Below, piece after piece: positions 21,832 to 40,079 of a stretch of DNA of 47,431 nucleotides. The DNA comes from a virus. Numbering within the stretch: the first letter of the stretch is position 1; every line of letters begins with the position of its first letter. The translations under genes and the position numbers were made by a program. The stretch spans positions 1 through 47,431 of IMG/VR virus record IMGVR_UViG_3300046715_000053; one strand, 5' to 3'. Below the pieces are notes generated by a model. That model saw nothing but the letters and a program-made list of their open reading frames with translations. It was not told where the DNA came from and did no database searches.

Positions 21832-24637
21832 TGTTCGTCACCCCAGTGGCGATTCGGTTATACAGATCCTCCTTGGAGAGCTGATCAGCGAACGCCGACG
21901 CGGCAGTGCGGGCGGCGTCTTGGGTCATCGCCCCCTGCACCTGGATGACCACCGAGCCCTGGCGGAAATGCAGTGCGACCGGGCCACCACCGTTCCCCTT
22001 CGCACGGTCGCTCGTGGTAGTCGCATACAGGGCGTCCTTAACCAGGACGTCGCGAATGAGTGACGCCTGCTTGGCGGGGATGACCATCTCGCCCTGATGA
22101 ATTCGTGCGTTCTGGTCTTGGGTGATCTCCCACGCACCCTTGTCGTACCAGTGATGTTGCTGCCAGAACGACCACGCATGAACCGGGTCACCATAACGGC
22201 CCTTGATATAATTAAGGCCCCATTTGATCTGTGTAGCCGGGTTGGTCTTCCAGTCCGACCCGGCCGAACTCATCTTGCTTCCCGGCAATGACTGAGGGAT
22301 TCCATAGGCCCCTGAAGGGTTCGCGGCCTTGTAATCCCAGCCTGACTCGTGATTCCACATCGTCAACAGGTCCTGCCATTCGGCACCCGAACCCCATCCG
22401 TATGCCCCGGCCATTTGCTGACCGAGTTTCTTGGCCCCTGCCGGTGTCTTACCTGAGCTTCCGTCGAGTGTTCCGGGCGTGCCGCCACTAGTCGAGGTTG
22501 AGGTTGATTGGCTGCCGCCGCTCATGGGACTGACCTTTTGTGCTCCGGCGGCGAGTGAGGCCATGATTGCCGAGACTTCTTCGATTGATCCGTAGTCGCC
22601 GACGTTGCCCCCGCCGGTCCCCTTGTTCAGGGTGCTCTGGTCGCCGCTCTGATTGTTATTACTGATGTCGTTCATGTTGCCGGTCGTACCGAAGATCCGG
22701 TACGCGGTGTCGTAGTATCCCTTGGGATACGGGCGGAAGCCGATCGGCCGACTGGAGTTATGCGCACCGTAGGTCTGGTTGTTTCCGGTGTACATTTCCA
22801 TGTGTTCGCTGCCCTTGAACACGAAGTCGCCGGGCTTGACCTCGCTGGGCCGGACGTTCTGCCCGGGGATTCGCTTGAAGTCCGGTACGACCATTCGACC
22901 GGCGGGAAGGTGAGGAAACTTCATCTGCCGGAGAACGTAATCCCATAGGCCCGAGCAGTCGAAACCGCCGTCAGATGGTTTTGATCCGCCCCAGATGTAT
23001 TTCCAGCCTTGGAATTTCTCGGCGATCTGTAGTGCCTGGGATGCTGAGCCTCCGCCTCCGCTCGTGCCGCCTACGCTTGACCCATTGTTGGTGGCACCGG
23101 AAGGTGACGCACCGAGGGATGAAAAAGTGGCGGTGGCGGAGCTTGCTCCTCCTCCGATCGCGCCGAGCGTCTTCCCACCGGTCATTCCCCCACCCATACC
23201 GGGCAGGAACATGTTCGCGAGAGGTCCGGCGAACTTGCCGATCGGACTGTTGAGAAATCCGCTAAATGCGGAGTTGAGAATCGAAGCGCCACCGGATGCC
23301 CCGACGATCTGTTTGATGCCTGGCAGATTTACGATCGATGTCAGTGCCTTGGAGAACTGGTCGACGGCGTCGGTGGCGTCCGTTACCGATGCGGAGAAGT
23401 CCTCGTTGACATCACCAGTGCGGCCGGTTCTGGTCGCTTGTAGATCCTTGAGGCTCTGGAGGGAGCTACGGCGAACGCCGACCTTATTGAGTTTGCTCCA
23501 GGCTCCCTTGTCACCATGCATGGCCTTTTGCGTTAGTGCGTCATAGTCCGAGCCGGACATCCCATGCCCTTGGGCGCTCGACAGCCCTTGCAGGTAGTTC
23601 TTGAGAGCTTCCTGGGAGCGAGAATCCAGGCCGAGCTGAGAGATGTTGTAACCCAGCATCCCGTTATCGGATACTGCCTGGCGCATCTGGTCAGGGCTTA
23701 GCTGCCTATTTCCGAATGTGCGCTGAAGGAGAGAATTTCCGATCTGGTTGAGAGGCTGGGCCTTTCCTCCGATCATCGTCCGGCCGAGGCCGAGCGACAT
23801 CATCCGGTAATAGCCCTGTGTGCTATAGAGCTGCCGCATCATGTTCGCGGAACCAGCGGCACCAAGGGTCGGGTCCGTGGTGTTCAGCGCGGCCATGGCG
23901 GAATTCATCGTTCCGCCGTTTCCGGACGTGATGCTCGTGCTGCCGAATGTCCGCTGGGCCATCATCGCGCCCTGCATGGCATCGGTCGGCCCGAGTGCCA
24001 TCGCGTTCAAGCCTTTGTTGTTGGATCCAAAGGCTGCGTAGCGGGCGGCGTTGCGGGCACCGACGCTGTTGCTGCCGATGGTCGCCCACGTGGCGTAGGA
24101 GTCCATGGCGAGCTGGTCCGGCATCATCCGGTTGCCCATGCCGACAGTCCCGGCCCACATGCCGCGCAGGCCTGTGCCGTAGGTGTAGGCGTTGTATCCG
24201 GCCGGGGGGTAGCCCCCCGCTGGTGGATAGCCGCGAGGTGGCGGGTAGGTCGGGGGGATGCCTCCGCCGCCAGGCGCATACCCGCCGCCATACCCGCCGC
24301 CGGGCGCATATCCACCGCCAGCCGGGGTGCGGGCGTAGGTGTCGGGGATGCCGGGTGCGGTGTAGGAGGTGGTTCCACCCGTTGAGCGGTTGTAGCGGTT
24401 GAACGTGACGTTCCCGCCGATGGGCATACCGCCGGACTGTGGTCGGTAGTTTGGGCTGTAGGGACTGGCGTTGCCGTACCAAGCGCGGTTGGCCCACTGA
24501 GCTGCCGGGCGGGCGGATACATCCGGCCGGTAAGACGCGCCCATTTTCTCGACTACCCGTTCAAGGGAGTCGACCGCTCGTTGCAGTTGGTTGACGCCGA
24601 GGAGTCTGCCGACTCCGCCGCTGGTGTCTTCAGCCAT
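21821..24637 (-). CDS. Tape measure protein with NlpC/P60 and lytic transglycosylase domains
   Basis: A 938-residue tail length-determining protein. After a helical start, residues ~55-155 are Gly/Tyr/Pro-rich with GGGYAPGG repeats; residues ~160-490 are helical and Ala/Ser/Gly-rich. Residues ~535-650 are an NlpC/P60 peptidase (FDCSGL, catalytic C561; EHMEMY, H612). Residues ~735-835 are a soluble-lytic-transglycosylase-like domain (WNHESGW, E764; GAYGIPQ; IKWGLNYIKGRYG). The two enzyme domains would cut peptide and glycan bonds for DNA entry. Its start overlaps the stop of a small ORF, and its end overlaps the next gene by 11 nt. Confidence 0.9.
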   Translation of the reverse strand: MAEDTSGGVGRLLGVNQLQRAVDSLERVVEKMGASYRPDVSARPAAQWANRAWYGNASPYSPNYRPQSGGMPIGGNVTFNRYNRSTGGTTSYTAPGIPDTYARTPAGGGYAPGGGYGGGYAPGGGGIPPTYPPPRGYPPAGGYPPAGYNAYTYGTGLRGMWAGTVGMGNRMMPDQLAMDSYATWATIGSNSVGARNAARYAAFGSNNKGLNAMALGPTDAMQGAMMAQRTFGSTSITSGNGGTMNSAMAALNTTDPTLGAAGSANMMRQLYSTQGYYRMMSLGLGRTMIGGKAQPLNQIGNSLLQRTFGNRQLSPDQMRQAVSDNGMLGYNISQLGLDSRSQEALKNYLQGLSSAQGHGMSGSDYDALTQKAMHGDKGAWSKLNKVGVRRSSLQSLKDLQATRTGRTGDVNEDFSASVTDATDAVDQFSKALTSIVNLPGIKQIVGASGGASILNSAFSGFLNSPIGKFAGPLANMFLPGMGGGMTGGKTLGAIGGGASSATATFSSLGASPSGATNNGSSVGGTSGGGGSASQALQIAEKFQGWKYIWGGSKPSDGGFDCSGLWDYVLRQMKFPHLPAGRMVVPDFKRIPGQNVRPSEVKPGDFVFKGSEHMEMYTGNNQTYGAHNSSRPIGFRPYPKGYYDTAYRIFGTTGNMNDISNNNQSGDQSTLNKGTGGGNVGDYGSIEEVSAIMASLAAGAQKVSPMSGGSQSTSTSTSGGTPGTLDGSSGKTPAGAKKLGQQMAGAYGWGSGAEWQDLLTMWNHESGWDYKAANPSGAYGIPQSLPGSKMSSAGSDWKTNPATQIKWGLNYIKGRYGDPVHAWSFWQQHHWYDKGAWEITQDQNARIHQGEMVIPAKQASLIRDVLVKDALYATTTSDRAKGNGGGPVALHFRQGSVVIQVQGAMTQDAARTAASAFADQLSKEDLYNRIATGVTNNVS

Positions 24638-24809
24638 TTTTCATCCGTTCCATACGCGCGAGCGCCGTCCTCAACCAAAAACGACGTTCACGGGGTGAGA
24701 TCCGGCGTATGTCACGGAGGCTCCAGCCGGGGTGTGCTACAGCGAGTGCTTCATATTCGTTGTACAGGTTTTGATAGTTAGAAATCCTGAAACAGTTCGC
24801 CGATTCCAA
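24630..24809 (-). CDS. Small overlapping ORF upstream of tape measure, possible frameshift product
   Basis: A 59-residue frame with TTG start (AAGGTGA 9 nt upstream) or entered by +1 shift from the chaperone-position gene. It reads ISNYQNLYNEYEALAVAHPG, WSLRDIRRISPRERRFWLRT and ends ARMERMKNG, with TGA inside the tape measure start (ATGGCTGA). The W-L-x-x-I-R-x-I-S-x-R-E-R pattern resembles the short product immediately upstream of tape measures in other phages, where it is often a frameshifted extension of the tail assembly chaperone. It fills a 140-bp gap that otherwise has no gene. Confidence 0.6.
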   Translation of the reverse strand: MESANCFRISNYQNLYNEYEALAVAHPGWSLRDIRRISPRERRFWLRTALARMERMKNG

Positions 24810-25653
24810 TCGGCAACATCACCTTCTTACCGCAGGTCTCATGCAGGCATGAAACCTCATCGAATCGTGGGCCAGGCTGGCGGAGCTTGACCTCTTTTAC
24901 CAGCTTCGCCCGGTCGGGAACTGACAGCCCTTCGCGAACGAGGGAGGGGAATCCAGCGACCGGTCGTTCCTGACCGTTGGAATCGGTGATCGAAATGACG
25001 GTGCGTGAAAGTAGGAGGGAGTTTTGCTCGGCCGGGGAGAAGTTCATGTTCGCCAGCAGCTCTTCCTGGTCATCGCCGGTCGCCAGCCGGATGTTGGCCT
25101 TGCGTCCCTTCCGGAGATTGACGGTGAAGACCGAGTCCATCAGCGGGTCTTCGAGCTTTCTGATCGGCACCTCATCGAGGGTGACGCTGAACTCGGTCTC
25201 TTCACCGCAGTGCGGGCACTCCAGTGAGCCCAGCTCGACCTCGTCTCCGTAGGTGGCCTCGCGGATCCCCATGATGATGAAGTCGCGGTCGCCGACGAAC
25301 ATCTGCTTGAGCATCTTCTGCGTTGGCTTTTCGCCGCCGACTGAGACAACCCCGCATTCGAGCAGGACGGAGATGAACCGCGCGAGGTTTCCGCTCTGCT
25401 TGGCCTTGGCGATCCGCTCTTCATGAGCGCCGTTAAGCTCACAGACCTCAACGTCCTTGACCACCTTGCCCTCGGCCGTGACCAAGCCGCCAGGGAGCGT
25501 TAGAACGCTCTCCGGCGGTGGCTCTACGAGCACGTCCTCTGTAGATGAGGACATGATCCTGTTGATTGTGGCGTTCGCTTTTTCCGGGTTGATGGTCGGG
25601 TCGATGAATCCGTCCGTCTCCACGTCTCTTCCTCCTTTTGATGTTCCAGCCAC
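24778..25653 (-). CDS. Tail assembly chaperone-position protein with zinc-binding motif
   Basis: A 291-residue protein lying between tube and tape measure. It contains CPHCGEE (about residue 153) and CLHETC (about 273), probably a zinc site, flanked by MGIREATYGDEVELGSLE and NIRLATGDDQEELLAN. This organisation resembles T4 gp26/gp51-like baseplate hub and tail-assembly proteins in many phages. By gene order it functions in tail assembly. The C-terminus (IGIGELFQDF*) ends within a TTT CAG GAT TTC TAA context where a +1 slip at TTT-C would enter the downstream overlapping ORF. Confidence 0.75.
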   Translation of the reverse strand: MAGTSKGGRDVETDGFIDPTINPEKANATINRIMSSSTEDVLVEPPPESVLTLPGGLVTAEGKVVKDVEVCELNGAHEERIAKAKQSGNLARFISVLLECGVVSVGGEKPTQKMLKQMFVGDRDFIIMGIREATYGDEVELGSLECPHCGEETEFSVTLDEVPIRKLEDPLMDSVFTVNLRKGRKANIRLATGDDQEELLANMNFSPAEQNSLLLSRTVISITDSNGQERPVAGFPSLVREGLSVPDRAKLVKEVKLRQPGPRFDEVSCLHETCGKKVMLPIGIGELFQDF

Positions 25654-26231: not shown

Positions 26232-27779
26232 TTACGTGGCGTTATCGGTGGCCGATGTGCCACCCTCGTACTGGCTGATCGTCACGATGACGAATTCAGC
26301 GGGCGACTGGAGCGCGACGCCGATTGTGATATTGACGATTCCCGCGCCGGTCTGGCTCGGCGGATTATTATTGGCATCGCACTGCACGAAAAATGCGGTG
26401 TCCGGGGAGTTGCCAGACAGGACTCCGGTCTGCATGAGCGTGGTCAGATACTGCGTGCACACTGCGTTGATCTGATTCCAAAGGCTCGGGCCGTTGCTTT
26501 CGAAAATCGCGAACCGGGTGAGGTTGGACAGGTCGTTTCGGAGCATCTGAAGTGTGCGCCGTACCGGCACATACCGGTCTGGATATCCGGTCTTGAGCGT
26601 GCGGGCACCCATGATGCAAAAGCCGCTGCCGGGAACGATCCGAATAGCGTTAATCGCCTTGGAATTGAGCAGGTCGGTATCGGAACTGGTGAACCTGGTC
26701 TCCAGATCAAGTACACCGACCAGAGCCGAGTCGATTCCGGCCGGAGCCTTCTGTACGCCTCTCAGCGCGTCCGTGGCGGCCATCTGCCCAAGGACTGCAC
26801 CGCCGGGCGGCAGAAACCGCATGGCTCCGGGCAAACTGCTGCTCGGGTCCGCCACGATCAGCCAGGGACCGTAGATCGCCGCGTATGAGGTCGGCGTCAG
26901 TGCGTTTCCGCCGGAGATCATCGCAACGTAGTTGGCCGCGACCTGGGCGCTGGTGCTGTTGGCCGGAGCCTGAGCGCCGTCGACTACCAGGAACGCGGTC
27001 CCCCGCGCCTCGCAGTAGGCGATGACTCCGTTCAAGACGGTCTGAGACGAGACGCCTGGCAGGTTGATGTTCAGGACGCCCGGGACCTGGTCCAAGGTGT
27101 TGGTCGCGCCGATGAGGTCTGGCGTGCCACTACCGTCCGCGCCTCCGGCTAGTTCTGCGGGATCGACAGCCGCCAGGCCGTCTACGGCTTCGTTATAGGT
27201 CCATCCCGCCGTGCCGACCTTTAGGTCAGTGACCTGAACGTAGTTCGATCCTGTGACGGGTGAGTTGACGACGCTGGCGACATACCGGGGATCGGCCGGG
27301 TCATTGCTGACATCGGGGAATCGTTCGACAAGGGTAGTGGTCGAGTTGTAGCGGACGATCAGGTCGAAACGGTCGGCGCTGGCACCCACGGTGATGGCGA
27401 CGTTGATGTTGGATCCCCACGCGCCGGGCGCGATAGCCGACACCTTCAGTCCGGCTTTGGGCGACTGGGTACTGGAGATGTCCGTGAGCTGCACGGACGC
27501 GGTACTGGCGTTGCCGTTGACGGCGCGAACGACGTAACAGTTCTTACCTCCGTTAAGGAAGAACTGGTAGACCGCAAAAGGCAGCAGATATTGCGGACCG
27601 GCAAAGCCACCGAATCGGGCGACGTACTGCTGCCAGCCGGTAATGAGAGTCGGCGTGGTCGGCCCTTGTGGAGACTGACCGACGAACGCGGCCACCGATT
27701 CACCGGGACCGGTTCCAGTAGGGGCAAGTGGAGCCAAGTTCTCCACAATGTAGGGACCTGGCGTTAGGTAGGTTGGCAC
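26232..27779 (-). CDS. Contractile tail sheath protein
   Basis: A 515-residue protein. The N-terminus YLTPGPYIVENLAPLAPTGTGP is the classic sheath opening in contractile tails; AFVGQSPQGP and YQFFLNGGKNCYVVRAVN continue domain I. The C-terminal half contains AIYGPWLIVADPSS, PPGGAVLGQMAATDALRGV, and NAIRIVPGSGFCIMGARTL, all conserved in sheath domain IV, ending with NITIGVALQSPAEFVIVTISQ. Sheath contraction drives the tube and spike through the cell envelope. This is the strongest evidence that the phage is a myovirus. Confidence 0.96.
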   Translation of the reverse strand: MPTYLTPGPYIVENLAPLAPTGTGPGESVAAFVGQSPQGPTTPTLITGWQQYVARFGGFAGPQYLLPFAVYQFFLNGGKNCYVVRAVNGNASTASVQLTDISSTQSPKAGLKVSAIAPGAWGSNINVAITVGASADRFDLIVRYNSTTTLVERFPDVSNDPADPRYVASVVNSPVTGSNYVQVTDLKVGTAGWTYNEAVDGLAAVDPAELAGGADGSGTPDLIGATNTLDQVPGVLNINLPGVSSQTVLNGVIAYCEARGTAFLVVDGAQAPANSTSAQVAANYVAMISGGNALTPTSYAAIYGPWLIVADPSSSLPGAMRFLPPGGAVLGQMAATDALRGVQKAPAGIDSALVGVLDLETRFTSSDTDLLNSKAINAIRIVPGSGFCIMGARTLKTGYPDRYVPVRRTLQMLRNDLSNLTRFAIFESNGPSLWNQINAVCTQYLTTLMQTGVLSGNSPDTAFFVQCDANNNPPSQTGAGIVNITIGVALQSPAEFVIVTISQYEGGTSATDNAT

Positions 27780-27812: not shown

Positions 27813-28484
27813 TTATGGTGCGACCACTGGTATGTCGTATTCGGCCTGAAACTGATCCAGGCTTATCCCCGAGTCCTTGTCGGTCATGTTGATCAGTACC
27901 TCCATGACACGCGTGAACGTCTGGACCTGAGAGGCGAGCAGCTCGGTCGAGACGCGGATGCCATAGATGGCTTGAAACAGCCTCTTCCCGTCGCCGTCCT
28001 TGACGGCTCTTAGTTCTGGCCCGCCGATCAGGTCCAAACGCCGTACGGTTCCGTCTTCGGGAATCGGTAGGAAGCCGAATCGCGCGGGCAGATAATCGAA
28101 TGCAGCCATCTGCTGCACCAGCGACATGTGATGCAGCACCTTGCGCGAGAGCACAGTGACCTGGTAGTCAATGTTGTACGGAATCGGAAAGTCGGCCGTA
28201 TAAGGCGAGGCCGCCGGATCATACGTCGTTGGGTTTGTATCCCACAGCGGCTGACCTTCAGGGGCATACGGGAGGAGAATGGATCCTCGATGCTCACGCT
28301 GAGAATCCTTGACGAGATCTGAGTGATCGATAATGACTGTCGGGAACGTCAGATCGGCCAGCTCGTTTTCTGGAAGCCTGAATCGGACGGGGACGGGACG
28401 ACCAGAAGGAGCGTTGACGTCGGTCACGCTCAGGCCGCGCAGTTTTTCTTTCAGCGCGCCATCTTCATTAAGGAGCCAGCTCAT
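27813..28484 (-). CDS. Putative tail completion / terminator protein
   Basis: A 223-residue protein preceding the sheath. The N-terminus is MSWLLNEDGALKEKLRGLSV; the core includes DYQVTVLSRKVLHHMSLVQQ and IYGIRVSTELLASQVQTF, compatible with a mixed alpha/beta tail terminator. Position between the neck protein and the sheath supports a tail completion role. It is preceded by copy B of the 59-bp element; the ATG follows the -10-like TATATC by 9 nt and lacks a convincing Shine-Dalgarno, so initiation may be leaderless as proposed for gpJ. Confidence 0.65.
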   Translation of the reverse strand: MSWLLNEDGALKEKLRGLSVTDVNAPSGRPVPVRFRLPENELADLTFPTVIIDHSDLVKDSQREHRGSILLPYAPEGQPLWDTNPTTYDPAASPYTADFPIPYNIDYQVTVLSRKVLHHMSLVQQMAAFDYLPARFGFLPIPEDGTVRRLDLIGGPELRAVKDGDGKRLFQAIYGIRVSTELLASQVQTFTRVMEVLINMTDKDSGISLDQFQAEYDIPVVAP

Positions 28485-28492
28485 CCTGCATC

Positions 28493-28551
28493 CGATATAG
28501 GCGTTTGTACATCGCCTTTTCAGGATAGAGCGGCGTTAATTCAGACTGTTA
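28493..28551 (-). promoter_or_regulatory. Intergenic element copy B: late promoter-like sequence with dyad
   Basis: Same length as, and 51/59 identical to, the element upstream of gpJ. It retains CTGAAA, AGGCG/CGCCT dyad and TATATC at identical spacing, while the loop sequence differs. The downstream ATG is again exactly 9 nt after TATATC. Its far end overlaps the stop codon of the neck gene. Confidence 0.6.
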
Positions 28552-29061
28552 AGGCTGAGACCACTGAGCGAACTGGAGGTCGTTCACCAGCTCGTCACCC
28601 CGCAATTGGGTGCCTTCGATGCCCACGATGACGTCTCGCTGCTGAATTTGCCCCAGAATATTAATCGCGGTTACACGGAACGGCTTCCCGTTGTAGACCA
28701 TGCGATCCTTGAGGTAGCGTTGCGTTTCCAGGTCCGCAAGCGTCAGGCCAGCGCGGGTTATCTGCGAGAACGAGGCCGTAACGTTCAGGTCGTCATTGTA
28801 GTAGAAGCCCGTGTCTTCATCCTCGTTCGGACCTTCTTGATGAATCACGTGAAGGACCGGCAACCTGATCGGATCGGCGAAGACCTTACCGACCAGATCT
28901 CCCTCATCGTAAATGTCGTTCACCCGGCTTTCGCTTTTGATGAACCTGTAGTAATCGATGACGTCGCCAAAATTCGACTGATAGCCGGACAACGCACTGT
29001 TGATCTCATAAGTCTCATAGTCGGCACCGAATCTGCCGCGCTTCCAGTCGAGCCGGGCCAT
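28549..29061 (-). CDS. Putative head-tail connector / neck protein
   Basis: A 170-residue protein between small tagged genes and the tail terminator. The sequence DYETYEINSALSGYQSNFGD with DVIDYYRFIKSESRVND and a later IPVLHVIHQEGPNE-type beta segment contains no unambiguous signature, but size and position match neck proteins that join portal-adaptor to tail. The ATG overlaps the upstream stop by 1 nt. I rely on gene order rather than sequence for the role. Confidence 0.6.
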   Translation of the reverse strand: MARLDWKRGRFGADYETYEINSALSGYQSNFGDVIDYYRFIKSESRVNDIYDEGDLVGKVFADPIRLPVLHVIHQEGPNEDEDTGFYYNDDLNVTASFSQITRAGLTLADLETQRYLKDRMVYNGKPFRVTAINILGQIQQRDVIVGIEGTQLRGDELVNDLQFAQWSQP

Positions 29062-29333
29062 CAGTTCGCCGAGTAGGACTTGTTCGGGGTGAATTTGCCG
29101 CCCAGGCTTCCCTGCTTCACCTCGTTCAGAGTGTTCTCACGCCATGCCGGATCATGTCTGGACAGGAAGCTGTGGTCCGAGGCGTTTTCTTTGTTCACCG
29201 CGTTTTGCATTCTTGCGCTGAACGTAAGGTTGTTGTGTGCACCCTCATAGTCATAGGCGGTCTTGTGGTAGTTCGCGGTGTCCGGGTCGAAACCAGGGAA
29301 CTGGACAGGGTTGATGTTGTCTTCAGCGGCCAT
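29061..29333 (-). CDS. Small tagged protein 1 (MAAEDNINPVQF)
   Basis: A 90-residue hydrophilic protein starting with MAAEDNINPVQFPGFDPDTA. The N-terminal 12 residues are shared with the next two upstream genes; the rest is different (AYDYEGAHNNLTFSARMQNA, SFLSRHDPAWRENTLNEV). The shared tag plus variable body is typical of modular targeting signals. Possibly an internal head or neck-associated protein; no enzymatic motif is seen. Start region TAAATCATGGCC is identical to that of the second tagged gene. Confidence 0.7.
   Translation of the reverse strand: MAAEDNINPVQFPGFDPDTANYHKTAYDYEGAHNNLTFSARMQNAVNKENASDHSFLSRHDPAWRENTLNEVKQGSLGGKFTPNKSYSAN
29299..29333 (-). repeat. N-terminal tag coding repeat, copy 1 of 3
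   Basis: DNA encoding MAAEDNINPVQF. Copies at 29558-29593 and 29903-29938 encode MAAEDNINPVQF and MAAVDNVNPVQF. Copies 1 and 2 are near-identical in DNA, including the seven bases before the ATG; copy 3 differs at many third positions, so it is older. Confidence 0.85.
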
Positions 29334-29344
29334 GATTTATCGCC

Positions 29345-29593
29345 TTAGTTATTCGTGCTGTGTGACAGCCAAGGGATTTTGAACTCCTCATGAGATCCGC
29401 TGGGCATGGCATGTGCTGGATGCGTCGTGTCCGTAGTCCCTGATAGCGCAGCACGGAAATATGCATGCGCCTGCGTCCGAGCGCCCGGTGTCTTATATTC
29501 GGATGCATTATCGAACACCGTGCCCTGATAGCTCTCCGAAGCTGGATCGAATTTAGAAAACTGGACAGGGTTGATATTGTCTTCAGCGGCCAT
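29345..29593 (-). CDS. Small tagged protein 2 (MAAEDNINPVQF)
   Basis: An 82-residue protein with AGGAG 9 nt before the ATG. The tag MAAEDNINPVQFSKFDPASE matches tagged protein 1 exactly over 12 residues, and both continue with xFDPxxxxYxxTxxD. The body (TPGARTQAHAYFRAALSG, then PSGSHEEFKIPWLS) is unrelated to anything I recognise. It appears to be a paralogue of protein 1 only in the first ~28 residues. Confidence 0.7.
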   Translation of the reverse strand: MAAEDNINPVQFSKFDPASESYQGTVFDNASEYKTPGARTQAHAYFRAALSGTTDTTHPAHAMPSGSHEEFKIPWLSHSTNN

Positions 29594-29596
29594 GAT

Positions 29597-29938
29597 TTAA
29601 GCTCCTCTCTCCCCGATACCCCTCAACCACGCCTGTGCTTTATTGGAAAGCCGATCAGAGTGCTGGAGATCGGGACGCTGCTCCCGCGCCCGCCGAAGCA
29701 GTTCAGTCGCGATACCTCGTCGCTGGTGCTCCTCGCTCACGTTCACGTTTCCTATCTCCCCTGTAGTTTCGCCCCAGGTGAGGTACCCCGCCATCCGCCC
29801 CTCCGGGGTACGCATAGTGACGGAATTAGGCTCGGCGACTGTGTAGTAACTGTCACCAGTCTTCGCGACGAACTCTCCATCAGCCCATTCCGGCCTGTTA
29901 GAAAACTGGACTGGGTTCACGTTATCTACGGCAGCCAT
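29597..29938 (-). CDS. Tagged mini-GNAT acetyltransferase-like protein (MAAVDNVNPVQF)
   Basis: A 113-residue protein. After the tag comes a compact GNAT-like domain: EPNSVTMRTPEGRMAGYLTW, IGNVNVSEEHQRRGIATELL with the acetyl-CoA-binding pattern Q-R-R-G-I-A (Q/R-x-x-G-x-A/G), then RRAREQRPDL. It is shorter than typical GNATs (~150 residues), keeping only the beta4-alpha3 core and probably lacking full substrate sites. It may acetylate a host or virion target, or be a binding-only remnant. It lies between neck and adaptor genes, an odd position for an enzyme. Confidence 0.75.
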   Translation of the reverse strand: MAAVDNVNPVQFSNRPEWADGEFVAKTGDSYYTVAEPNSVTMRTPEGRMAGYLTWGETTGEIGNVNVSEEHQRRGIATELLRRAREQRPDLQHSDRLSNKAQAWLRGIGERGA

Positions 29939-29941
29939 GGC

Positions 29942-30760
29942 TCATCCCCACCCGTTTGGGTACAGCGGTGAGGCGACTCCGGACTCGTCATCGTCGCGGT
30001 GGTCGATCGGAGGCAACTCACGAACCGGCAGGCTCGTGTCGTCGTATTCGCGGGCTCTGAACACCGGAACGAGACGTCCGGTTGTGAGGGACACCCGGCG
30101 GAGAGTGCTGATCTCCACGCGGTACAGGCCGACATTGAGTTGCGCGGCCATTTCCCTGTATTTGGCGGTCAGTACGTCGATCTGCCGGGTGATCTGCGCC
30201 CATCGCTGGCTTCGGGCCAGGTGGGTCCCTTCGGCGGTGCTCACGTCGATATCGGTTGACGCGTCGGTGGAAAGCGCCCACAAGGATTCAATCGTCGCAA
30301 GGATCGCAACGAGCGGCTCCTCTATCGTCGGCAGATTTTCCAGCACGACGGGCTGCTCGTCGTATTTGATGAACCCGTTCGCATTGCGGTAACGGGTTTC
30401 GATCGTCCGCCCGCTTCCGTGCTGAGTGACGGCGTCGTTGATGAGCATGGTCAGCTCGTCATCACCGAACATCCCGTAGCTGACGCCGGAGATGACGAGG
30501 ACCTGGCTGCCGCCGGGGGCGGTGGTCATCTGAATGGATCCGTTGGCGAAGTCCATTGTGTAGGCGCTACCCGGCAGGTCGTGCGACGGAATACCGTTGT
30601 CGATCGTGAATACGTGGAACGATGCGTCATTGGCGATGTGTTTGACGGGGAGGTCGAACCAGGTCGTGATGCCGTCGCCGGTCACTGATGTGCGAAAGGA
30701 GTCGCCGAGATCGCCAAGCTCGAACCGTACACGCTTGATCAGATCACTGAGCTGTGCCAT
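29942..30760 (-). CDS. Putative head-tail adaptor protein
   Basis: A 272-residue protein. The N-terminus LSDLIKRVRFELGDLGDSFR and the beta-rich DGITTWFDLPVKHI match the opening of phage head-tail connector/adaptor proteins, which are helical near ELTMLINDAV and LARSQRWAQITRQIDVL. The C-terminus is extended and acidic (DHRDDDESGVASPLYPNGWG). It follows the fibre-like W-repeat protein in transcription order, in the neck module. Function is inferred from family-like patterns and position. Confidence 0.65.
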   Translation of the reverse strand: MAQLSDLIKRVRFELGDLGDSFRTSVTGDGITTWFDLPVKHIANDASFHVFTIDNGIPSHDLPGSAYTMDFANGSIQMTTAPGGSQVLVISGVSYGMFGDDELTMLINDAVTQHGSGRTIETRYRNANGFIKYDEQPVVLENLPTIEEPLVAILATIESLWALSTDASTDIDVSTAEGTHLARSQRWAQITRQIDVLTAKYREMAAQLNVGLYRVEISTLRRVSLTTGRLVPVFRAREYDDTSLPVRELPPIDHRDDDESGVASPLYPNGWG

Positions 30761-33780: not shown

Positions 33781-34875
33781 CTAGTTAGTCTCGGCGATGA
33801 CGACGGACTGGTCCGTAATAAGACCAAGCCCCCAAATTGCATACCACGCCAAAGCGTGCTCTCTTCCGAAATCTAGGATTCCGCCGTCCCGCAATTCGAC
33901 GGGGAGGGAAATGGCGTGGCCGAACGCGTTGTCTCCGAGGAAGATCGCCTGGTAAATGTCGCTGGTCGGGACGACGGGCGGCCCGACAGGGTCACCACCG
34001 GCACCGGCGAGAACCTTTACCTGAGTCGTCTCGATAAAGACAACATCGTTGATCCGGCCGATTTCTCCAAGCATAAAATTGCCCGGAGCGGCATACTTTG
34101 TGACCTCGATCCATTCAGGATCTTCACGGAGCCACCGAGACTGGTGAGGGTGGACGAAACAGACGTACGTTTCTCCCAAGCGGGGAATGTTTTTCGTCCC
34201 GAGAACCTCGACGGCGTCCTTGGTCAGGGTCGCCGAGAACTTGTAGGTCCCGTCCATCTTCTTCCGGGCCGTGGTCGACACACCCGGGCCAGGGCCGGTC
34301 GGGTTCAGCGGAAGGGCAGCGGAGGATGACGACTTGCCCTGGTCAAAGGGAGACAGAGGCGTCACGGTGGCGGTAGTGGGCGGCCAGACGGTGCCCGATC
34401 CCGCCGACTTGTTGTAGCCGTAGATGACGCTCGTGCCCTGAAGCAGCGTGTCTCGGGCGGAGACGTCAAGATAGGTCGCCATGTTGCGGCCCAAAAGACG
34501 CGACGCGCTCGCCATGACATCATCGAACGAGGCGTTCAGAAGCAGTTCCGAAACGGCAACCGCGTAGCCCTGCTCAGCCACGGTAATCGAGAACTGCTGC
34601 GCCGTCAGAGCGTTGGTCTGCATGCGCACACCTTCAACGAGCTGCGAGGCAGCGCCGAGGTTCAAGTAGCGCATGAAGTTGATGGTCAGACCAGGCTGAA
34701 CGCCCAACTCCGTCTTTTTCACCGCAAATTGCTCAAAGCGCAAAATCGGCATTGACTGGAACAAGATTTCCTTGCTCCAGATGGTCTGAATTGCCGGTCC
34801 GAGGGTGGAGTTCGCCCCACTGTAGGCGGTCGGGGTGGCCGAAAGATTCGGCGTACCGGTAATGGCACTAGGCAT
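33781..34875 (-). CDS. Major capsid protein (N4-gp56-like/HK97-fold)
   Basis: A 364-residue protein. The order portal-scaffold-capsid is standard, and the sequence fits: TIWSKEILFQSMPILRFEQF, NFMRYLNLGAASQLVEGVRM, TVAEQGYAVAVSELLLNASF and NIPRLGETYVCFVHPHQSRW resemble the N4-gp56 family of capsid proteins; the C-terminus contains GDNAFGHAISLPVELRDGG. It is the icosahedral shell subunit. AGGAAAG precedes the ATG. A hairpin follows the stop, consistent with high expression. Confidence 0.88.
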   Translation of the reverse strand: MPSAITGTPNLSATPTAYSGANSTLGPAIQTIWSKEILFQSMPILRFEQFAVKKTELGVQPGLTINFMRYLNLGAASQLVEGVRMQTNALTAQQFSITVAEQGYAVAVSELLLNASFDDVMASASRLLGRNMATYLDVSARDTLLQGTSVIYGYNKSAGSGTVWPPTTATVTPLSPFDQGKSSSSAALPLNPTGPGPGVSTTARKKMDGTYKFSATLTKDAVEVLGTKNIPRLGETYVCFVHPHQSRWLREDPEWIEVTKYAAPGNFMLGEIGRINDVVFIETTQVKVLAGAGGDPVGPPVVPTSDIYQAIFLGDNAFGHAISLPVELRDGGILDFGREHALAWYAIWGLGLITDQSVVIAETN

Positions 34876-34887
34876 GTCTTATCTTTC

Positions 34888-35760
34888 CTATCCGAACATC
34901 CCGCGTGAGGATGCATTGGCTGCGCCGATTACGCGGCCCCGAATCTTCTCCCACTCCGACATCGGCATAGATGAAATCTCGTCTGGTGTGTACGTCTTAG
35001 TGCCCGGTTCGTTGTCCATGGGGCCGGTGGCCGCATATCCGGCCGTGCTTACGCCCCTTTGTGCCGCCCGCGCAGTCGTCTGCGCCTGCGACAGATTGCT
35101 CACAATGGCCTCCGTCTTAGAACGGAGCATCGCGATACTCGTCTCGACCTCATCCTCGGTATTTCCGTTGATGAGGTCGATCAGTTCCGGAGCGATGTTG
35201 TCCTGCTCCTCGCGGGCGCGCTGAGCGATGTAGGCGCGCAGAGAGGCGAACTGCCGCTCCTTCTCCAGCGCCGCTCGCTCCTCGTTCCGCTGACGCTCGA
35301 TGGCCTCCAACCGCTCCCGCCACTCCTGATCCTTGGCGGCGATGAGCTGCTTGGCGGACATCTCCTCCTCGGCCCTCTTGCGGGCCTCTTCCTCAGCAAC
35401 GGCACGCTGAGCCTCCTCAGCGGCCTTCTGCTCCTCACGCCACTGCCGGAGCTGCGTCAGCTCGTCCCGCATCGCCTTGGACTCGGTCTTGAGCTTCTCC
35501 TGCTGCCGGTAGAGCTTGGTCTTCTCCTCCTCGCGCGCCTTGGCGATGTCCTCGGCCGTGAACTTCGGCGTGGGGGGCGGCGTAGGCGGCTGTGCGCCCT
35601 CTACGGGCTCCTCCCCCTGCGGCAGGCCGGGAGCCTCTTGGGTGCCCTGAGCGAACGTCTCTTCGGACGCTTTAGGCGCACCACCGGCAATGAGCCGGAT
35701 CGGCGTACCGTCCTTGCGGTAGCCGATGACCTCGCCGGGTCGCGTGGATCGGTAGTACAT
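34888..35760 (-). CDS. Capsid scaffolding protein
   Basis: A 290-residue protein immediately upstream of the capsid gene. N-terminal beta-like segment (GEVIGYRKDGTPIRLIAGG), Pro-rich linker, then a long charged coiled coil at about residues 65-190 (KAREEEKTKLYRQQEKLKTE, EEARKRAEEEMSAKQLIAAK). The C-terminal part (YTPDEISSMPMSEWEKIRGR) would contact capsid subunits. This size, coiled coil and position are typical of phage scaffolds that template procapsid assembly and then leave. A maturation protease is not evident in the window. Confidence 0.85.
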   Translation of the reverse strand: MYYRSTRPGEVIGYRKDGTPIRLIAGGAPKASEETFAQGTQEAPGLPQGEEPVEGAQPPTPPPTPKFTAEDIAKAREEEKTKLYRQQEKLKTESKAMRDELTQLRQWREEQKAAEEAQRAVAEEEARKRAEEEMSAKQLIAAKDQEWRERLEAIERQRNEERAALEKERQFASLRAYIAQRAREEQDNIAPELIDLINGNTEDEVETSIAMLRSKTEAIVSNLSQAQTTARAAQRGVSTAGYAATGPMDNEPGTKTYTPDEISSMPMSEWEKIRGRVIGAANASSRGMFG

Positions 35761-35774
35761 TTACTCGTCTCCTA

Positions 35775-37502
35775 TTAGCTTTGGTTCTCCGGATTTCGGC
35801 GTTGGGCCAATTTGGTCCCGTACGCCTGCGTCACCAGATCTGCGAGCAACTTCTGGGTTTCCGGTCCGGTTATGTCCGCGAACGGAGGTGCCGCTTGCGG
35901 ATTCACCGTTACTCCTGCACCAGACGGAGACGAGTTAGAGCTACTAGAGCCTGGTGCGTCGTTATTCTCTTGGTCTTGCGGTTCAGGTCCCTCAGGAACC
36001 ATTCCCGTCAATGCGAGAATAGCCGAATTTATCTGAGATTTAATAAGGTCGAGCGCGCCTTGGTCCTTAGCGTCCTCGACAAGTTCCTCAAAGATCTCCT
36101 CCAGCTTCTCGTCGGCGAATTCCTCGCCGAGGTCTCGGAGCGCCCCGCGCTTGGATTCCAGACCCAATGCCATCTTCGCCTGGATCTCGTTGAGTTTCAC
36201 CAGAACATCGGTCGGAAGTGGCGGTGGCCATTCGCATTCGGTCAACGTGACGAGCGGGTCGTCCGGGTTGATCACCAGCGGTTGACCCTCTTGAATGATT
36301 CCTTCGGTATCAGGGTCGTAGCGGACGGTTTCCGGCTCGAACAAGAACAATGTGCGAAGGGCAAGCTCATTGATACGCTTGAGTCCGGCGGTATACTCAC
36401 GCTTCTTCATCGAGTAACGCATCATCATCGGCATGAACTGAATCGCCAGTGCCACGCCGGATGTATTCGAAATCGGCTGGAGCTGTCCGAGTGCCGTTTC
36501 CGGTACGCCGGTAAGCTCGTGCATGCTTCGCTTGATCTGCTCTAGGAACTCAAGCGGACCGGCCAGATCGACGCCGTTTTCCAGGTTGAAGACATTGGCG
36601 TCCTTGGGAAGACCGCCCCACACTTTCCGTGCCGATTTCTCAAGGTTGGAAACTTTTGCGCCCGTCACGATGGTTACGGGAGCCGCGTGGTAATTGATGA
36701 TGTCGCTGATGTCCGTGGCCTTTTCATTGAATTCACGGTTCAGCGCGACGATCGAGTTGATGTCTGAGAGTCCCCACGGGCTTCCTGAGATCGGGATGTT
36801 CCTGATGTGAACGACGGGGATTGTCCCGATGGGATTCGGCCGCTCATCGATCAGTTCGTCATTGACGAACTCCTGAATGAGGTCGTCGGTCAGGATCTCC
36901 GTGTAGGTATAGACCTGCCTGGTGCCCTCCAGGCTGGTACCCCAGAAACGGTACTTCATCTTGAACCGGATCAGCCTGTCCCGATCATGCGGATGGTACT
37001 CGGGAAAACAGAAGCTGCTGTTCAGCGGGAGAATGCGCACGCGGCCGGGATGCTGGAATCCCGCCGGGTCCTCCCACGCCGGATCATAGGCGACCTTGAC
37101 GAAGCAGTCTCCCGAGACTCCGCCTTGCTGCCCCATATCCCACAGGGTCTGACTCTTGTTGTTGTCGACTTCCCAGATACGCCGCAGCAGCGCGGGCACG
37201 ATGTGCTGGAACTCTTTGGCGGACTGGAAATGGACGCCTCTGCCAAAGGTGAAGTTGTTGATGTAGTTGGCGAACGCCTCGACGTAATTGAAAACGAGCT
37301 GCGCATCACCGAACTGGCGCTTGTACGCCCAATGGTGACCTAGGTAAAACGCCCAGTTTTGTGCATACCTGTTGATGCGAGGTCCATGTACCTCGAATTC
37401 TTCGTCAGCCAGCTCGATAAGGCCCAAAGGCGATACGGAGATGGCGAGATCCGACGCTGATGCCCGCATTGATGGGCTGTAGAAATCGACTCCCGCCGTC
37501 AT
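35775..37502 (-). CDS. Portal protein (SPP1 gp6-like)
   Basis: A 575-residue protein. Conserved segments include NWAFYLGHHWAYKRQFGDAQ, NFTFGRGVHFQSAKEF, SDCFVKVAYDP-like GDCFVKVAYDPAWEDP, and LSDINSIVALNREFNEKATD followed by YHAAPVTIVTG and MHELTGVPETALGQLQPISN, which are typical of SPP1-type portals. The C-terminus is low complexity (SSSNSSPSGAG). Portals form the dodecameric DNA channel at one capsid vertex. It lies two genes downstream of terminase in transcription order. Confidence 0.92.
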   Translation of the reverse strand: MTAGVDFYSPSMRASASDLAISVSPLGLIELADEEFEVHGPRINRYAQNWAFYLGHHWAYKRQFGDAQLVFNYVEAFANYINNFTFGRGVHFQSAKEFQHIVPALLRRIWEVDNNKSQTLWDMGQQGGVSGDCFVKVAYDPAWEDPAGFQHPGRVRILPLNSSFCFPEYHPHDRDRLIRFKMKYRFWGTSLEGTRQVYTYTEILTDDLIQEFVNDELIDERPNPIGTIPVVHIRNIPISGSPWGLSDINSIVALNREFNEKATDISDIINYHAAPVTIVTGAKVSNLEKSARKVWGGLPKDANVFNLENGVDLAGPLEFLEQIKRSMHELTGVPETALGQLQPISNTSGVALAIQFMPMMMRYSMKKREYTAGLKRINELALRTLFLFEPETVRYDPDTEGIIQEGQPLVINPDDPLVTLTECEWPPPLPTDVLVKLNEIQAKMALGLESKRGALRDLGEEFADEKLEEIFEELVEDAKDQGALDLIKSQINSAILALTGMVPEGPEPQDQENNDAPGSSSSNSSPSGAGVTVNPQAAPPFADITGPETQKLLADLVTQAYGTKLAQRRNPENQS

Positions 37503-38501: not shown

Positions 38502-40079
38502 TCAGCGCACGAACGGCGAGTCGGTGACCTCCACCTCTGGCATCTGGAAATCCACCGTCAGTGCACACGCGAGAGCCAACGAGTCAGCGTAATCGTCATG
38601 TGCATCAGCCTCGTTCGGTGCCGCCGCCAATACATATGGACCAGTGAATTCCTTTTGCAGATCAGACATCTGCTGATAGAAACGACGCCAGGTCTTCAGC
38701 CTCCGCGTCTTCGCGTGCGCGGGCCAGGCGATGAGCCGCCGATTCATCAGCTCCATCAGATGCTTCCAGCGTTTGGACTGATCCGGCCGCTGAGATCCAA
38801 GCTCCTCAATATGAACGTGAGGCATGAGCACCTTCAGCCGGGACGCGACAGCGTCACCTACGCCGCCAACGTCAACGCCGATAGCGAGCACGTCGTATGC
38901 TTCAAGGAAATCAACGATACGGAAATACTGAACCTCCCATTCCATGCCTGTGAGATCCAGCCAGTTCAATACCCGATGCTGGTAATGGCCGAACTCATCG
39001 GGCCGATCCCAGTCGACTAGGACAACCGTGACGACCGTCGAGTCTTGCTTTCTGGCCGGGTCGATACCGACGACGACCGGTGTCCGGTGCCAGGCGTGTA
39101 CGATCTGCATCGACTTGTCGCCCAGATCGTCCAGCAGTTCCGAGGTGGCGAACTGTCCCTTGTCCAGCAGCCAGTGATTGCAGTAGGACAAGCGGAACTC
39201 ATCCGAGTCACTTCCGAGCCGGAGCATTTCTTTCTTGACAAAGCGCCCGTAGTTCGTGTTGCTCTTGGCGGCTTCGTGATAATCGGCCTCAAAGTGGTTT
39301 TGTCTCGCACCCCGCCGTAGCCCTTGCCGCTTGTTCAACTGAATGGTCTTAAAGAAGACGCCTTTGTTGTACGTCGGCGTCCCCGTGAATACCAGCGTGG
39401 CGTTGGTGGAGGCCCCCATAGGGCCGATGCTCTTGTTGACGACTCGCTCATCTGCGCCCTGGCACTCGTCAATGAGGATGAGGTGGTAGGTCCGACCCTC
39501 GATGGTGGCTCGCGGGTGTGCCGTCTGGCGGCGTACGAGAGAGCCTCTCTTGAGCGTTACGGTCCTGCCCCGGCCCTTGATGCGCTCTTCGATGTCCGGG
39601 TCCGCCATGAGGTTCTCGGCGTTCTCTGACGTCAGCCTGGAGACGATCCGGCCGAACAGTGTGTCGGCCTGGTCATCCACCGGAGCGAACGCGCCGACCC
39701 ACAACCCCTCAGAGAACTTCCCCATCAGGTCGGGATAGACCTTGGCCAGAATCGGGAACAGGATCATGCAGGCCGCGACGACATTGGCCACTGTCTCGCT
39801 CTTGCCGCTCTGACGGCAGAACAGAGCCGTCAGCGTTGCGCCGTCGCCGATGATGAGCGACTCGATCATCCGCCGCGCGAAAGGCTTTTGGTAGTGATAG
39901 AGCGGATGTCCGGACAGCTCATCAACTACTACCAGAACTTTCTCGATTACCGCATCGACAAACTCCTGCGAAAGCTCATCGAGGATGATGTCGGTAGCGA
40001 GCCGCGCTTCACGTTCATCGGCCGTCTCGTCCGAGTAATCGGTTTCGAGGATCTCCTCCTCATCAAGCGAGACGTCCAT
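38502..40079 (-). CDS. terL: Terminase large subunit
   Basis: A 525-residue packaging motor. ATPase: Walker A CRQSGKS (K93), Walker B ILIDE (D204, E205), coupling motif FTGTPT. The C-terminal RNase H-like nuclease shows VVGIDPARKQDS (D340), GVDVGGVGD and a terminal AHDDYADSLALAC. It cuts and translocates DNA into the procapsid through the portal encoded downstream. No obvious small terminase is adjacent; the Zn-HTH protein two genes upstream is a candidate. It opens the late operon after a terminator and a palindromic element. Confidence 0.93.
   Translation of the reverse strand: MDVSLDEEEILETDYSDETADEREARLATDIILDELSQEFVDAVIEKVLVVVDELSGHPLYHYQKPFARRMIESLIIGDGATLTALFCRQSGKSETVANVVAACMILFPILAKVYPDLMGKFSEGLWVGAFAPVDDQADTLFGRIVSRLTSENAENLMADPDIEERIKGRGRTVTLKRGSLVRRQTAHPRATIEGRTYHLILIDECQGADERVVNKSIGPMGASTNATLVFTGTPTYNKGVFFKTIQLNKRQGLRRGARQNHFEADYHEAAKSNTNYGRFVKKEMLRLGSDSDEFRLSYCNHWLLDKGQFATSELLDDLGDKSMQIVHAWHRTPVVVGIDPARKQDSTVVTVVLVDWDRPDEFGHYQHRVLNWLDLTGMEWEVQYFRIVDFLEAYDVLAIGVDVGGVGDAVASRLKVLMPHVHIEELGSQRPDQSKRWKHLMELMNRRLIAWPAHAKTRRLKTWRRFYQQMSDLQKEFTGPYVLAAAPNEADAHDDYADSLALACALTVDFQMPEVEVTDSPFVR

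Follow-up and report, generated by a model that had tools for sequence, protein, structure and literature searches.

A shared N-terminal peptide on small phage proteins with unrelated bodies: a candidate virion-loading signal in a contractile-tailed phage lineage

Introduction

What is a common 12-residue start doing on neighbouring small proteins of a phage? The question is raised by a stretch of DNA of 47,431 nt (IMG/VR record IMGVR_UViG_3300046715_000053), the whole of which was analysed and is called the window here; by gene content it comes from a contractile-tailed phage. A first-pass annotation of the sequence had pointed to three adjacent genes in the head–neck region with N-termini of the form MAAxDNxNPVQF, and had read them as a common tag on unrelated cargo, behind which new effectors can be added. 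The coordinates and the motif were verified, and the head–neck location is correct and recurs in three related contigs (L025, L070 and L122). The three genes, referred to as A, B and C, and their tags are as follows.

29597..29938, minus strand: gene C, tagged mini-GNAT acetyltransferase, 113 aa (PF00583, 28.2 bits; AlphaFold)
29903..29938, minus strand: tag of gene C, MAAVDNVNPVQF (from sequence; the same tag family is found on 56 non-redundant proteins)
29345..29593, minus strand: gene B, tagged, body without a known domain, 82 aa
29558..29593, minus strand: tag of gene B, MAAEDNINPVQF (from sequence)
29061..29333, minus strand: gene A, tagged, body without a known domain, 90 aa, paralogue of B at least to residue 28
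29298..29333, minus strand: tag of gene A, MAAEDNINPVQF (from sequence)

The three tagged genes

The genes are tightly packed, with gaps of 3 nt between C and B and of 11 nt between B and A, and A overlaps the next gene by 1 nt. Beyond the tag, C is unrelated to A and B. The earlier statement that A and B also differ completely past residue 12 did not hold: BLASTP gives 18/28 identities over residues 1–28, and the two are diverged paralogues at least through residue 28. Their DNA is common around the ATG, as had been noted, running from TAAATC through the tag with only two differences, both silent; this nearly identical region takes in the 6 nt upstream of the ATG, and in B the TAAATC consists of the stop codon of C followed by ATC. 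The tag of C is kept mainly at the protein level, with synonymous changes relative to A and B in Ala, Asp, Pro and Phe codons, and this mostly silent divergence fits the proposal that C is the older copy. The DNA common to A and B in turn fits a copying of A from the start of B. In the simplest history, C would carry the old tag, B would have a start of its own, and A would have arisen when that start was recently copied.

Gene C is the body that had been recognized as a mini-GNAT, and its match to PF00583 (28.2 bits against a curated Pfam cut-off of 20.7) bears this out. The AlphaFold model has a GNAT-like body with a pLDDT of 77–86, while the tag (pLDDT of ∼34) lies outside the body and the first 29 residues are unfolded. 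Foldseek comparison of the model with GNAT structures gave probabilities of 0.8–1.0 with modest TM-scores of 0.33–0.46. A tag modelled without structure beside a confident GNAT body is as expected of a partner-binding peptide. Tagged GNAT relatives of C are found in contigs L025, L110, L112, L116 and L117. Neither A nor B has a Pfam or PHROG match, and no close relatives of their bodies were found in viral contigs or annotated phages; the model of A is weak and mostly disordered, with two helices and a pLDDT of 51.

The tag family

A search of viral contigs for the exact form DNxNPVQF returned four stretches, none of them an N-terminal tag on a gene-sized open reading frame; the family surfaced only with a looser pattern containing Leu. 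Tagged proteins were collected from pattern scans of viral contigs and from three tag-bearing relatives of the window covered wholly or almost so, G001 (80 of 81 kb), G002 (112 kb) and G003 (54 kb), using M-[SA]-A-x-D-N-L-[SN]-P-x-Q-F or M-x-N-L-[SN]-x-x-Q-F at most eight residues from the start. This gave 69 tagged proteins, or 56 once near-copies were removed, from a group of soil and freshwater phages. The proteins are 57–181 aa long with one body each, and their genes often stand in arrays. The core Asn lies five residues past the Met in 30 proteins and two residues past it in 17. Information content reaches ∼3.9 (N), 3.8 (L), 4.1 (Q) and 4.2 bits (F) and falls to 0.75 bits at the next residue; conservation at letters that the scans required is partly circular, and the sounder evidence comes from positional counts and from residues outside the scan requirements. 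Large proteins containing NLNP.QF, for example in L027, L032 and L040, were omitted as the motif lies hundreds of residues into the reading frame.

Once the tag is cut off, BLAST sorts the bodies into 27 clusters, 19 of which are single proteins, many without a Pfam match. Together with the drop in information after the Phe, this excludes the tag being part of a conserved full-length domain, and the idea of a common tag behind which effectors are added is borne out by its occurrence elsewhere on unrelated bodies. Pfam finds nine GNAT, eight Arr-ms (Arr-type ADP-ribosyltransferase) and three ParB_N matches among the 69 proteins, and PHROGs add further ParB-like matches. A 57 aa tagged protein (MNQNLSMAQFSPQRSITMAGAMPR...), found at L112 220–393, L117 2268–2441 and L137 8632–8805, is conserved in several freshwater contigs; it has no apparent domain and is nearly only tag and tail. 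Literature searches with spelled-out forms of the motif returned no paper, which is weak evidence of novelty.

The positional counts are as follows. A start-independent pattern (A-x-D-N-[L/F]-x-P-x-Q-F, no start codon required) hit viral contigs 20 times, and 14 of these hits lie no more than two residues from a start codon; 257 Gb of bacterial and archaeal genomes yielded 31 hits, none of which opens a gene-sized reading frame. A loose motif, [NH][LIVMF]x..Q[FW], falls within the first eight residues of 16 reading frames in G001–G003, where its internal rate predicts 0.32 (Fisher 3e-17). At least three of the 16, however, had led to these records in the first place as scan matches, so that ∼12–13 are independent. 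The seven cases counted as internal in the same records include several that are also near plausible starts. Five untagged relatives have no N-terminal occurrence of the loose motif, against 0.27 expected.

Among isolated phages, the closest relatives of gene C come from the Mycobacterium C-cluster, where they are segments of a large protein encoded upstream of the portal gene. Gene C is also weakly related to E3 gp70, an annotated structural protein, and to T7-like internal virion proteins; E3 gp70 is the counterpart of gp80 of Mycobacterium phage Essence. Essence gp80 (L002 10900–12942) is a 680 aa protein annotated as hypothetical and is encoded ∼5 kb upstream of the portal gene. Its ParB-like segment aligns with a tagged protein with 29/88 identities (E 2e-10, single comparison), its GNAT segment aligns with another tagged protein with 23/67 identities (E 6e-9), and its start has a weak ADP-ribosyltransferase-like resemblance. 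As one protein thus holds segments homologous to separately tagged proteins, the tagged set looks like a polyvalent protein taken apart, in which the shared tag would do the work of the fusion. Both packaged ADP-ribosyltransferases and polyvalent proteins encoded close to late genes have been described (PMC5512222, PMC9503650), and the cargo folds match those known in injected or virion-borne phage proteins.

The neck-region slot

Genes A, B and C lie between two conserved neck genes in a block of structural genes.

38502–40079, minus strand: terminase
35775..37502, minus strand: portal protein (PF05133, 81 bits)
34888..35760, minus strand: scaffolding-protein homologue (phrog_2303, weak; homologue of GiJojo gene 70)
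33781..34875, minus strand: major capsid protein, lineage marker common to G001, G002 and G003 (phrog_1357, E 1.3e-65)
29942..30760, minus strand: p29942, conserved head/neck protein, upstream flank of the slot
28549..29061, minus strand: p28549, conserved head/neck protein, downstream flank of the slot
27813..28484, minus strand: tail terminator homologue (homologue of, and in the same position as, GiJojo gene 79)
26232..27779, minus strand: tail sheath (phrog_23, E 8.7e-51)

GiJojo gene 70 is annotated as a scaffolding protein and GiJojo gene 79 as a tail terminator directly ahead of the sheath gene. The major capsid protein is 57–61% identical in G001–G003. The flanking protein p28549 is 46–52% identical in Streptomyces phages, and p29942 is 48–49% identical in five of them, where its gene abuts that of p28549. 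In the Streptomyces phages BRock and GiJojo the two neck genes adjoin and the slot is empty, and LuckySocke, Alone3 and pSt2308 seem to have this arrangement too.

In contig L025 the slot holds a tagged GNAT (MANRNLNPDQF) directly ahead of the 28549-type gene, with a second one (MNRNLQPLQF) after it. In L122 the gene directly ahead of the 28549-type gene, overlapping it by 4 nt, encodes a different sort of tagged protein (MSAQDNLNPQQF), and in L070 a tagged protein that continues FFHGT, like the ADP-ribosyltransferase-like cargo, lies directly ahead of the 29942-type gene. Tagged genes with differing bodies thus occupy the neck position in four phages, and the identical place in three of them (the window, L025 and L122). 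Their co-directional embedding between neck genes in all four fits late, structural expression. In L114 tagged genes are close to those for terminase and portal. The tagged arrays of G001 and G003 are 10–17 kb from the terminase gene, outside the head block.

The place between the neck genes is also a general insertion site, with untagged genes of other sorts at L070 4193–6404, G002 23430–24970 and L008 1379–1747; in L008, L009 and L014 the slot is occupied by a single unrelated gene of ∼118–125 codons. Elsewhere in the head block, three related contigs have an insert of ∼285 nt that splits the major capsid gene after about codon 47 (L010 1549–2827, L012 1803–3081 and L013 1780–3062); the insert leaves two separate open frames and has no Rfam match.

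Distribution in the lineage

All tagged contigs but L124 share genes with G001–G003 or the window, and the window, BRock and its relatives have terminase, portal, capsid and neck genes in common and in order. As far as searched, and with the exception of L124, the tag appears to be confined to this BRock-related myovirus lineage. The tag scan covered BRock, GiJojo, LuckySocke and pSt2308, but not the full genome of Alone3, and detected no N-terminal tag. Queries with tagged ADP-ribosyltransferase, GNAT and ParB proteins found no tagged isolate among annotated phages. An Arr match in Acinetobacter phage MD-2021a was set aside, as it lies beside cmlA1 and sulI and is resistance-cassette DNA rather than a tagged phage gene.

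On the terminase tree the tagged phages occupy several deep branches, so that the tag has been gained or lost more than once; a single origin was rejected, the tag needing two to three changes on this tree. The window has no gene besides the cargo that is unique to tagged phages and could encode a receptor. Since the five untagged relatives examined share the capsid, portal and scaffold families with tagged phages, no unique receptor can be named.

An HslV/proteasome-like Ntn hydrolase (PF00227, 23.8 bits; N-terminal MTTIVGVQYKD) is encoded near the freshwater tagged arrays, at G001 56467–57015 and in L022 (5376), L023 (6850), L054 (8709), L116 (7032), L119 (5275) and L125 (2699). In G002 a hydrolase of this kind and a proteasomal-type AAA ATPase (PF00004, PF16450, PF17758) are found at 64341–64982 and 598–2115, respectively, the ATPase gene being directly upstream of the terminase gene.

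Proposed function and alternatives

We consider it probable that the 12-residue N-terminus is a modular virion-loading signal carried by unrelated small effectors. The tag would be a portable sorting element, fused to effectors that occur singly, in threes or in arrays, and would bind a component of head or neck assembly. The most plausible partner is the scaffold or the portal side of the prohead, with the scaffolding-protein homologue as a candidate receptor. To judge from its sequence, L-[S/N]-P-x-Q-F resembles a helix N-cap, with Ser/Asn as the cap and a Leu–Phe staple, and the tag may fold on its receptor. Proteins so tagged would become part of the virion and reach the host cell together with the DNA; there the bodies, among them GNAT, ADP-ribosyltransferase and ParB-like ones, could act on host targets.

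The main rival gives the tag a docking role within the infected cell, where it would bring the effectors to one phage or host protein (RNA polymerase, the replication complex or a host hub, for example) and have no role in the virion. This is unlikely in our estimate, yet deserves to be taken seriously: it would suit the arrays outside the structural block in G001, G003 and related freshwater contigs, and a short, potentially helix-capping motif is typical of docking peptides. It sits less well with tagged genes that run co-directionally between neck genes in four phages, and with cargo folds like those that other phages have as fused parts of structural or injected proteins.

We think it improbable that the shared N-terminus is a leftover of duplication, or a recombination or translation-start cassette whose peptide has no function. 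The nearly identical DNA of A and B, including the 6 nt upstream of the ATG, is what a recent duplication of a start region would leave. Across the lineage, however, the residues are conserved while the codons vary (Asn AAC 30 and AAT 22, Phe TTC 28 and TTT 27, and several Leu codons), and 27 body clusters have kept the tag across branches that separated deep in the tree, which together argue for selection on the peptide.

Still less credence is given to a degradation or processing signal for the HslV/proteasome-like protease near the arrays. The hydrolase is encoded in G001, G002, G003 and several array contigs, G002 adds the ATPase, and this is the sole non-cargo family present in G001–G003 and in none of the five untagged relatives. 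However, no copy was found in the window, itself a fragment, and the G002 protein shares only ∼24% identity with its counterparts. The association comes from few and partly related genomes, and large arrays of proteins made to be degraded are hard to justify; a link between hydrolase and tag is possible but weak. Chance convergence on LSPxQF as a common helix start can practically be dismissed: most bacterial matches lie inside genes or in non-coding DNA, and some are helix starts such as DNLTPTQFSTLI, but the tag is N-terminal with a shared prefix M[SA]AxD, 16 N-terminal cases stand against 0.32 expected, and most tagged proteins lack an amphipathic helix after it.

Taking the virion-loading reading at its broadest, we lean slightly towards one portable address tag that loads interchangeable single-domain effectors into the virion throughout the lineage, a separate-protein equivalent of polyvalent effectors in which a tagged N-terminus marks an injected effector. 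If this is true, finding host-entering phage proteins of unknown function becomes a text search, with dozens of candidates flagged by the motif. The tag would also join the T4 and P1 signals as a further short code for capsid loading, and, as the isolated relatives infect actinobacteria, offer a possible tool for delivering chosen proteins into these hosts.

Comparison with known systems

The capsid-targeting sequence (CTS) of T4 is an N-terminus of about ten residues that brings virtually any protein into the prohead and marks highly diverse, host-directed internal proteins (PMC3012670, PMC7697877, PMC9026906). The adjacent T4 genes ipII and ipIII share their first 11 residues, MKTYQEFIAEA, and differ in their bodies, and the window is alike in having a conserved N-terminus of about ten residues common to neighbouring genes with diverse, unrelated cargo. 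The two tags differ in sequence: MKTYQEFIAEA and MSAxDNLSPxQF do not match, and no motif is common with DNLSPxQF. The phage lineage is also another one, and the tagged cargo here is made up for the most part of enzyme folds and can occupy whole arrays. Neither a T4-type protease nor a cleavage site was recognized; no prohead protease was seen among the head-region proteins scanned from the window and its relatives, a search that a divergent one could escape, and a T4-style cleaved tag is thus without support. If the loading reading is right, the tag would work like the T4 CTS yet stand outside that sequence family.

In P1, an N-terminal signal targets the effector DarB to the head, as found by reporter fusion; it lies within the first 30 residues, and the same study found no consensus among the Dar N-termini (PMC9024508). 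The head targeting proposed here would share the N-terminal location, but the tag has an explicit consensus.

BRock, GiJojo, LuckySocke, Alone3 and pSt2308 have the same terminase, portal, capsid, scaffold and neck genes as the window, and differ in that the neck slot filled in the window is empty in them. Finally, polyvalent and MuF-fused effectors have ADP-ribosyltransferase, ParB-like and GNAT domains, are encoded near late genes and are thought to be injected (Iyer et al., 2017; PMC5512222). The same kinds of domain occur in the tagged set. Polyvalent proteins carry several effector domains per polypeptide, whereas here each domain is a separate small protein with a single body, and the common element is a short tag rather than a fusion.
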